From contig CALVCL010000006.1 in NCBI GenBank assembly GCA_944326085.1, forward strand, positions 1 to 64,000: DNA of 64,000 nt, in the 5' to 3' direction. Shown here in pieces: positions 16,752 to 20,810 of the stretch. Every line of letters begins with the position of its first letter. Positions within the stretch are counted from its first letter, which is position 1. Origin of the DNA: an uncultured Tidjanibacter sp. Its GTDB lineage: Bacteria; Bacteroidota; Bacteroidia; Bacteroidales; Rikenellaceae. The notes beneath the pieces are model-generated. The model worked only from the letters and a program-made list of their open reading frames with translations, searched no databases and was not told where the DNA came from. The translations under genes and the position numbers were made by a program.

Positions 16752-16782
16752 TTTGCAGAAACAGAAACTTGTAGTACCTTTG
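16752..16782 (+). promoter_or_regulatory. Canonical Bacteroidota promoter of tRNA-Asp
   Basis: TTTG at 16752-16755, a 19-bp spacer, then TACCTTTG at 16775-16782 fit the -33/-7 consensus. The tRNA begins 17 bp downstream. Confidence 0.8.
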
Positions 16783-16799: not shown

Positions 16800-16873
16800 G
16801 GTGTGGTAGTTCAGCTGGTTAGAATACCTGCCTGTCACGCAGGGGGTCGCGGGTTCGAGTCCCGTCCATACCG
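16800..16873 (+). tRNA. tRNA-Asp (anticodon GTC)
   Basis: The acceptor GGTGTGG pairs with CCATACC (one G-U). The D arm includes AGTTCAGCTGGTTAG. The anticodon stem CCTGC/GCAGG encloses CTGTCAC with anticodon GTC. The T arm is CGGGTTCGAGTCCCG. The discriminator base is G, as usual for Asp. CCA is not encoded. There is no sign of an element integrated into its 3' end. Confidence 0.96.
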
Positions 16874-18467: not shown

Positions 18468-19079
18468 TCACTTCTCCACAAGACCCAATTTTTGAAGACG
18501 TGACCTTATCGCCCCCTGTTTTCGTCCGAAATGTTCAGCCAGCAGCTCTACGCTCACCCCATCACCGTACATGCCAGCCAATTTCTCATCATCCGCTTCA
18601 GTCCACGGGTTATAGGCATTGGGATACTCCTGACGACACGCATAAACGGAATATAACGGCTCTCCGCACAAACGCTTGTAAGCCTTCAAATACCGCTTAA
18701 GGCGCTTGACATCCTTATCCGACAGATACGGCAGACGACGGATATCCATGTTGTCCGTAAGGTCGTTGAGCTTTACCGATACGGCCAGTTCATTGGTCTT
18801 TACACGACTGATATAGCGGTCATACGGCTCGTCATCTCCCTTCGTCAGACACCGCAACGCATCAATAATCTTCGGCGAAAAACCTTCGGCCACAAGTTGC
18901 TCAAATGTCCATTCACTGTCCTCAACGACATCGTGCAGAACACCAACTATCTTCTCTTCAGTTGTGCGCCCCGCCGCCATAACCCGTAAAGGATGCTCAA
19001 CATAAGGCTTGCCTACCCTGTCCTTCTGTCCGGCATGCGCCGCAACAGCTATCTCAACTGCCCGTTCCAAAGTTGCCAT
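18468..19079 (-). CDS. HD-domain (Mesh1/SpoT-hydrolase-like) protein with C-terminal Myb/SANT-like segment
   Basis: 203 residues from the ATG at 19079 (an alternative in-frame start lies 9 codons upstream). Residues 1-140 carry the HD phosphohydrolase signature: H29 in EHPLR, H49-D50 in LHDVVED, E53-D54, and KLNDLTDN. This is the arrangement of single-domain (p)ppGpp hydrolases. The C-terminal ~50 residues (NPWTEADDEKLAGMYGDG...LLAEHFGRKQGAIRSRLQKLGL) look like a Myb/SANT-type helix-turn-helix also seen at the ends of Bacteroidota nucleic-acid enzymes. Alarmone hydrolysis is inferred from family. Confidence 0.85.
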   Translation of the reverse strand: MATLERAVEIAVAAHAGQKDRVGKPYVEHPLRVMAAGRTTEEKIVGVLHDVVEDSEWTFEQLVAEGFSPKIIDALRCLTKGDDEPYDRYISRVKTNELAVSVKLNDLTDNMDIRRLPYLSDKDVKRLKRYLKAYKRLCGEPLYSVYACRQEYPNAYNPWTEADDEKLAGMYGDGVSVELLAEHFGRKQGAIRSRLQKLGLVEK

Positions 19080-19227
19080 AACCGTACGTTTTGATTTCAA
19101 CATCAATTAAAGTTACATAAAATCCACCGTAATCCCCACACCTCATCCGGTCCAAAATACTCCCCAACACAACAAAAGGCCACGCACCTCGCAATTCCTA
19201 AATTTATTTAAAAAATTATTAAAATTA

Positions 19228-19258
19228 TTTGCAAAATCAAAAAAACGCCTTACCTTTG
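19228..19258 (+). promoter_or_regulatory. Canonical promoter driving a putative small RNA
   Basis: TTTG at 19228-19231, a 19-bp spacer, and TACCTTTG at 19251-19258. No coding frame follows it before the convergent M20 gene. Confidence 0.75.
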
Positions 19259-19264
19259 CAGTGA

Positions 19265-19361
19265 AGTTTTAAGGTTCATTTTAGGTTAGTAGTTTTAGGT
19301 TAGTGAAGGAAAAACGGTAAGGTGGTCGAGAACCCCTGCCGGATTTCCTTTTTTTGTTTTT
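19265..19361 (+). ncRNA. Candidate free-standing small RNA
   Basis: It begins a few bases after a consensus promoter and ends in a GC-rich hairpin followed by a T-rich run (TTTTTTTGTTTTT up to 19361). The 3' stem pairs GGAAA (19308-19312) with TTTCC (19344-19348), CGGTA with TGCCG, and GGTT-like with AACC around CGAG. The 5' half carries a direct repeat TTTTAGGTTAGT at 19279-19290 and 19293-19304, an unstructured region that could base-pair with targets. No ORF with a start codon of useful length is present. I do not recognise a known RNA family. Confidence 0.6.
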
Positions 19362-19442: not shown

Positions 19443-20810
19443 CTACTTGGATGCTTCCGCAAAATACTTGTAGAACAAAGTAATGGTTTCTATACCGCGA
19501 TAGAAGTTATCCAATCCGTAGCTTTCGTTCGGCGAGTGGATTGCGTCACGGTCGAGACCGAAGCCCATAAGTATCGACTTGATACCGAGGATGGACTCGA
19601 AACCGCTGATAATCGGTATGCTGCCACCCGAATAGAACGGAAGCGGCTTCTTGCCGAATGTTGCCTCCATAGCCTTTTCTGCAGCATGGTAAGCAGGCAT
19701 ATCGGACGGAGATACGTAAGGCTGACCGCCGTGCAGGAACTTGACATCCACAGTCACGCTGTCCGGAGCAATGCTCCTGAAATAGTTCTCGAACAATACG
19801 GCAATCTTCTTGAAGTCCTGATTGGGGACAAGACGCATCGATATCTTGGCATAAGCCTTCGAAGGTATTATGGTCTTCGTACCCTCGCCTATATAACCGC
19901 TCCACATACCATTGACGTCGAGCGTGGGACGGACGCCGGTACGTTCCATGGTTGTATATCCCTTTTCGCCCTGCACGTTCGGAATATTGATGAGACTCTT
20001 GTAATGTTCAAGGTCGAATGGAGCCTTGTTGAAAGCCTCGCGTTCAGCATCCGACAGCACACGGACATCATCGTAGAAGCCTGGGATGGTAATATGACCT
20101 TCCTCGTCGATGAGTTTCGATATCATGTCGGCCAGCACGTTGGCAGGATTGGCAACAGCACCGCCAAACAGACCCGAGTGAAGGTCCTTGTCGGGACCGG
20201 TAACCTCAACCTGCATATAGCACAGACCGCGCAGACCGCAGGTAATGGAGGGAGTTTCCCAACCGAGCAGGCTTGTATCGGAAACGAGTATCACATCGGC
20301 CTTTACAAGCTCCTTGTGCTCCTCGCACCATTTATAAAGGCTCTTGGAACCTATCTCCTCCTCGCCCTCAAGCATGAACTTGACATTGCACGGAAGCTGC
20401 TTGGTAGCCACCAGCGCCTCGAATGCCTTGCAATGCATGTAAAGCTGGCCCTTGTCGTCATTGGCTCCGCGGCACCATATACGGCCGTCCTTGATGACAG
20501 GTTCGAAAGGTTTGGTATTCCACTCATCTATCGGGTCCTCGGGCATTACATCGTAGTGGCCGTAAACGAGCACGGTGGGGAGCGACTTGTCAATCATCTT
20601 CTCACCATACACCACAGGATTGCCATCGGTAGGCATAACCTCCGCCTTGTCGGCACCGGCCTTGAGCAGCGCTGCCTTCAGCCATTCTGCCGCACGTACC
20701 ATGTCACCCTTGTGTTCGCTCTGCGCACTTATCGACGGTATCCTCAAAAGCTCGAACAACTCTTCAAGGAACCTGTCCCTGTTCTTTTCAATATACTCCT
20801 TAACAATCAT
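19443..20810 (-). CDS. M20-family dipeptidase/metallopeptidase
   Basis: 455 residues. The zinc-site motifs are clear: VYGHYDVMP (first His/Asp), GANDDKGQ (bridging Asp), EGEEEIGS (catalytic and metal Glu), VSDTS and near the C-terminus DAIHSPNE (last His). The dimerisation or lid domain contains DLHSGLFGG. The length and GANDDKGQ place it with the M20 dipeptidases (peptidase V/CNDP-like) of Bacteroidota. No signal peptide is seen, so cytoplasmic breakdown of dipeptides. It is followed upstream on the same strand by glmM (37-bp gap). Confidence 0.92.
   Translation of the reverse strand: MIVKEYIEKNRDRFLEELFELLRIPSISAQSEHKGDMVRAAEWLKAALLKAGADKAEVMPTDGNPVVYGEKMIDKSLPTVLVYGHYDVMPEDPIDEWNTKPFEPVIKDGRIWCRGANDDKGQLYMHCKAFEALVATKQLPCNVKFMLEGEEEIGSKSLYKWCEEHKELVKADVILVSDTSLLGWETPSITCGLRGLCYMQVEVTGPDKDLHSGLFGGAVANPANVLADMISKLIDEEGHITIPGFYDDVRVLSDAEREAFNKAPFDLEHYKSLINIPNVQGEKGYTTMERTGVRPTLDVNGMWSGYIGEGTKTIIPSKAYAKISMRLVPNQDFKKIAVLFENYFRSIAPDSVTVDVKFLHGGQPYVSPSDMPAYHAAEKAMEATFGKKPLPFYSGGSIPIISGFESILGIKSILMGFGLDRDAIHSPNESYGLDNFYRGIETITLFYKYFAEASK

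Follow-up and report, generated by a model that had tools for sequence, protein, structure and literature searches.

What does the short interval at positions 19228-19361 of this Tidjanibacter contig encode, and which messages might it act on? A sequence-only reading of the window, by which we mean the whole 64,000-nucleotide (64-kb) stretch analyzed here, had described it as a complete, free-standing small RNA (sRNA) gene with a promoter, a duplicated motif and a terminator, and had suggested that the motif pairs with AC-rich mRNA sites. The analysis below bears this description out, and adds to it a kinship with FopS, a third copy of the motif, variation in the number of copies and the identity of the mRNAs that appear to be targeted. 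The features are as follows.

19228-19231, + strand: -33 promoter element TTTG, a consensus match that is still TTTG in homologues
19251-19258, + strand: -7 promoter element TACCTTTG (TAnnTTTG), a consensus match at 19-nt spacing
19261-19355, + strand: predicted small RNA transcript, from sequence, fold and covariance model match
19266-19278, + strand: degenerate first seed copy GTTTTAAGGTTCA, from sequence
19279-19290, + strand: seed copy TTTTAGGTTAGT, near-invariant in the family
19293-19304, + strand: seed copy TTTTAGGTTAGT; including the next GA, its complementarity to the EF-G2 leader (UCAUUAACCUAAAA) amounts to 14 contiguous pairs
19306-19355, + strand: predicted intrinsic terminator, an AAGGAAA...TTTCCTT stem with a variable inner stem and T7

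The promoter pair corresponds to the Bacteroidales -33/-7 consensus with a gap of 19 nt between the two elements, as had been proposed. The pattern TTTG-N18-21-TAnnTTTG occurs four times in the window versus 0.86 expected, a number that was reached by no shuffle, and nearly all homologues retain TA[TC]CTTTG at -7. The predicted transcript of this strand would start at about 19261-19263, as judged from the promoter, and end at the T-run. A second exact -33/-7 match is located at 16752-16782, directly upstream of a tRNA-Asp at 16800. Both neighboring genes (18468-19106 and 19443-20810) lie on the opposite strand, so that the sRNA gene is indeed free-standing, and it is present in one copy in this genome. 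The duplicated unit consists of two perfect TTTTAGGTTAGT copies and is unique to the locus, as no further copy was found elsewhere in the 64-kb window, even at one mismatch. The earlier count of seeds was correct as far as the duplication is concerned, but it did not include the degenerate third copy, GTTTTAAGGTTCA, which is situated just 5' of the pair.

The terminator hairpin (about 19306-19350) runs into the T7 stretch (19349-19355) and is supported both by the fold energy of -24.9 kcal/mol (z = -2.5 versus shuffles) and by paired changes within its inner stem across homologues. A generic terminator scan did not flag this hairpin, and the interruption of its stem is probably behind the miss. 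For the seed region, an unpairedness of only about 0.5 is predicted, and in some homologues a weak 5' stem (GUGAA/UUCAU) is found at the degenerate seed copy. CCTTACC in the promoter (19248-19254) and GGTAAGG in the terminator stem (19316-19322) are inverse complements of each other, possibly by chance. Single-T insertions and deletions and the varying number of 14-nt units break every reading frame in the homologues, which makes an ORF implausible, and a small leader peptide was rejected on these grounds. A search of the 64-kb window against Rfam returned only a tRNA above the gathering cutoff and chance-level matches at the sRNA locus; a known Rfam RNA, 6S and SRP included, was thus ruled out. 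Similarly, the sRNA had no match among the viral contigs and phage records searched, and the idea of a mobile or phage-borne RNA was rejected.

The completeness of the gene was confirmed by its conservation across the family. BLAST gave a match at E<=0.01 in 38 of 60 relatives, the weakest of which cover promoter-like stretches only. At the whole-genome level, most genomes of the same genus and the same family were positive, and the identity in the 5' half was mostly 85-100%. A covariance search, which the sequence-only reading had put forward as a check, was positive for 28 of 41 family genomes, with one to four copies of the RNA in each; the match in the window extends from 19259 to 19356 with 100.6 bits, the window sequence itself being among those from which the model was built. 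In the named genome collection, 57 stretches contain the exact 21-nt core AGGTTAGTAGTTTTAGGTTAG; every one of them is labelled Tidjanibacter, Alistipes or Rikenellaceae, and the window was therefore assigned to Rikenellaceae. In the alignment of the homologues, the seed region is invariant and the terminator changes via paired substitutions. This invariance is in part a selection effect, as the core served as the search pattern, but BLAST, which does not impose this condition, agrees: the 5' half is nearly invariant, whereas the terminator and the flanks drift. Judged by this pattern of sequence conservation, the sRNA gene is real.

The surroundings and the 3' half of the homologues vary in several ways. 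A tRNA-Leu(GAG) lies close downstream in 20 of the 57 loci (L037, L039, L048, L055, L063, L065, L074, L077 and L079 among them), often directly past the terminator, but not at the window's copy. In a Tidjanibacter subset (L040, L052, L057, L068, L076, L078, L083 and L090) another stem, AAACAGGG...CCCTGTTT, stands in place of the usual terminator, and a second hairpin and a T-run come after it, so that the 3' half is exchanged and the seeds are unchanged. Tandem duplicate sRNA genes, about 200-400 bp apart, are found in some relatives (L012, L041, L084 and L085, as well as G030 C1:1087513-1087862 and G073 C38:186049-186546).

The seed unit is 14 nt long (AGTTTTAGGTTAGT). Most copies of the sRNA carry two units, and the family range is from one to about five, with three in L047 and L049 and four to five in G063 and G080. 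G035 has the single-seed form, in a divergent homologue (L361, minus strand, 220-283 and upstream) whose seed is located behind a perfect 5' hairpin, CTATCC-GAGA-GGATAG. This homologue scores only 15 bits with the covariance model, evidence that divergent members escape the model. With several seeds, pairing may become more likely, or one molecule may be able to take several targets.

A genome search for complementary sites near start codons, also put forward earlier, pointed to one gene. At up to one mismatch, ACTAACCTAAAA occurs three times in the 1.69 Mb genome, and two of these occurrences are within the sRNA itself. The sole non-self site, ATTAACCTAAAA, lies 6 nt before the ATG of the gene for elongation factor EF-G2 (fusA2; EFG2_Bacteroid). 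A first ranking of candidate targets by simple duplex folding energy was dominated by GC-driven noise and missed EF-G2 because start calling was poor. It was replaced by a ranking by contiguous pairing, in which EF-G2, with 14 contiguous pairs, was at the top of 3684 candidate starts, drawn from about half of the genome and from those AACCTAAA sites that were returned as loci. The predicted duplex of the sRNA with the EF-G2 leader has an energy of about -15 kcal/mol.

The EF-G2 site is preserved across genera. We gathered EF-G2 leaders from 34 genomes regardless of the motif, and ACCTT?AA was present in the leaders of 10 of 18 genera versus 3 of 282 control leaders. Pairing with the genome's own sRNA was better than that of at least 95% of the 282 control leaders in 10 of 13 sRNA-bearing genera. 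The combined P is 1.2e-8, or 4.5e-8 without the discovery genus, under the assumption, not entirely true, that genera are independent; no significant pairing was found in the other three of the 13 (g10, g41 and g44). Moreover, the pairing follows the variants of the seed. In g42 and g46, it is the AAGG form, as in the degenerate first copy, to which the EF-G2 leader is complementary; in g1, g9 and g13, it is the AGG copies. The seed of g7 is shortened to UUAGUUAGU, and its counterpart in the leader is ACUAACUAA. By eye, the flanks of the site do not align between genera, and the motif in the EF-G2 leader therefore looks constrained. On the strength of these comparisons, EF-G2 appears to be the best-supported and most widely kept predicted target.

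Other sites point to sugar and glycan genes. Across the family, 83 exact A[CT]TAACCTAAA sites lie outside the sRNA. Of these, 51 (61%) are followed by an ORF start, at a distance that is mostly 10-26 nt and in some cases 25-35 nt, versus 4 of 30 (13%) for the reversed-pattern control (P = 5e-6). Glycan and sugar genes make up 23 of 46 site-bearing proteins versus about 2 of 40 random ORFs (P = 2e-6), in a classification made post hoc, after the hits had been seen, and with random ORFs drawn from sRNA neighborhoods; under a strict definition, limited to hydrolases, SusC-like receptors and Sugar_tr permeases, the number is 14 of 46 (P = 0.002). The site-bearing glycoside hydrolases belong to families 20 (two), 28, 42, 78, 88 and 106, in addition to an arabinosidase, and they are accompanied by three SusC-like receptors, sugar permeases, GFO/IDH/MocA enzymes and similar proteins. 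The site location and target classes, together with the EF-G2 site, thus support the antisense pairing that had been suggested.

Some observations on the sites count against this reading. A/C-rich words are enriched upstream of starts in general (about 15% for composition-matched 8-mers), AACCTAAA alone did only modestly better in the own-genome sample (5 of 12), and a plain 8-mer enrichment test on 332 genes turned out to be uninformative. No SusC target was demonstrated in the small genome to which the window belongs. Weaker candidates in it include pyruvate:ferredoxin oxidoreductase, phosphoglycerate kinase, fructose-bisphosphatase, branched-chain aminotransferase and metG, to none of which would we attach significance on their sites.

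The closest known RNA is FopS of Bacteroides thetaiotaomicron, a repressor of susC that also binds the mRNAs of glycoside hydrolases close to their start codons (PMC11697453). The FopS model (BTncRNA_FopS, Rfam RF04319) aligns along the whole of our RNA with 16.4 bits and E = 4.2 on 351 bases, short of the gathering cutoff of 56 bits. A whole-genome search with this model found no FopS in the window's genome or in 47 Rikenellaceae relatives, and it did find FopS in 12 of the 32 genomes of other Bacteroidales families searched, 7 of them above the cutoff. Intermediate sequences (L268, which carries UUUUAGGUUAAC, L269, L266 and L033) weakly connect the models of FopS and the new RNA. Both are short sRNAs with a canonical -33/-7 promoter and the same layout, a 5' seed stretch followed directly by the terminator, although the seed of the window's RNA is about half unpaired in the prediction. 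The FopS core UUUAAGGUUAAU is similar, but not identical, to UUUUAGGUUAGU, and the two RNAs share target types, namely the start-codon regions of SusC-like transporters and glycoside hydrolases, which in our case are predicted. In contrast, FopS has one seed and 12-15 paralogues per Bacteroides genome, whereas the window's RNA has two seeds with a degenerate third and one copy, or one to four in relatives. Furthermore, FopS is bound and antagonized by the RRM protein RbpB; a search of the window's genome for RRM_1 proteins found none, and an RRM protein is present in only 8 of 41 family genomes. The relationship could be one of distant homology or of close convergence. Given the low FopS score, the repeated seeds and the lack of an RRM protein, we would call the window's RNA a new distant variant working like FopS, rather than a member of FopS.

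EF-G2, the top predicted target here, is absent from the main text of the FopS study (PMC11697453). Outside the family, 12 genomes with FopS were compared, and in 4 of them the pairing of the EF-G2 leader with a FopS sequence has a nominal P of 0.02-0.045, which is suggestive only. The fusA2 mRNA was co-purified with the sRNA MasB in B. thetaiotaomicron (PMC10994844), and an sRNA link to EF-G2 has thus been seen before; a convincing MasB site in fusA2 did not emerge. GibS of B. thetaiotaomicron carries the R1 seed in common with FopS and represses metabolic genes by pairing at the start site (PMC11697453). By its description it is set apart from our RNA by a second seed of its own, R2, of other sequence, and by its PM2 promoter motif. 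Of the genes under the carbohydrate master regulator of Bacteroides, the one for EF-G2 shows the strongest induction when carbon is limiting; it is silenced by sugar and is required for gut colonization (PMC10294740).

In our judgment, the RNA is probably a FopS-like trans-acting antisense sRNA that represses the translation of glycan-use genes and EF-G2. A housekeeping-type promoter would drive its transcription, and the molecule would expose two identical UUUUAGGUUAGU seeds and the degenerate third. In the cell, each seed would bind to ACUAACCUAAAA-type sites located 10-26 nt before start codons, mask the initiation region and block the loading of ribosomes. Across the family, the regulon would comprise SusC-like transporters, glycoside hydrolases and sugar permeases. 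It would also include EF-G2, the elongation factor of starvation times, which would be kept low when unneeded, in line with its induction on carbon limitation.

Repeated units are the hallmark of sponges such as CsrB and RsmZ, which titrate CsrA. The window's RNA shares with them a repeated single-stranded motif, and a unit that is repeated one to about five times and stays near-invariant inside a drifting molecule is what one would expect if UUUUAGGUUAGU repeats titrated an RNA-binding protein and the mRNA sites were incidental. However, the window's RNA differs from the CsrB/RsmZ-type RNAs in that its motif has complementary mRNA sites, which a sponge does not predict. These sites precede the start codons of a coherent gene set, EF-G2 pairing tracks the seed variants, and the lack of an RRM protein in this genome and the scarcity of such proteins in the family also argue against a sponge, which we regard as unlikely. 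Alternatively, the ACTAACCTAAA leader motif could be a translation or DNA element in its own right, with the RNA a decoy (target mimic) or unrelated rather than a repressor. In 8 of 18 genomes that lack a model match, the motif does precede glycan genes, but at least one of these, G035, has the divergent single-seed RNA with the same seed. The EF-G2 site, in turn, is found in 0 of 5 genera without a model-found RNA versus 11 of 14 with it (P = 0.005), a comparison weakened by homologues that the model missed, as g14 has a single-seed RNA and the status of g8 is doubtful. We regard an independent leader element as quite improbable.

The sign of the regulation is taken to be repression because of the position of the sites and the FopS precedent. 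The same pairing with the opposite outcome, in which the RNA activates translation or stabilizes its target mRNAs, would be compatible with the sites 25-35 nt upstream of starts, and pairing geometry by itself leaves the sign unsettled. Most sites, however, sit in the initiation region, and FopS, which was tested experimentally, represses at the same position (PMC11697453); we therefore give activation a low probability. The least probable reading by far is that of a chance promoter-terminator remnant with neither transcript nor function. The sequence is kept nearly letter for letter in many genera while the terminator and the flanks drift, and by this measure of conservation the chance reading appears largely refuted.

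To our knowledge, post-transcriptional control in Bacteroidota is known almost solely from B. thetaiotaomicron. These findings suggest that Rikenellaceae (Alistipes and relatives) also have a FopS-type system, one in which the seeds are repeated and RbpB is missing in most genomes, and they name EF-G2 as a widely kept predicted target. Tentatively, FopS and the window's RNA might belong to one ancient Bacteroidales sRNA superfamily with EF-G2 as its core ancestral target, which would link sugar availability to the choice of elongation factor and which in Rikenellaceae would be free of RbpB, its strength being tuned through the gain and loss of tandem seeds (one to about five). If true, an sRNA brake on EF-G2 would join two separate layers of control.
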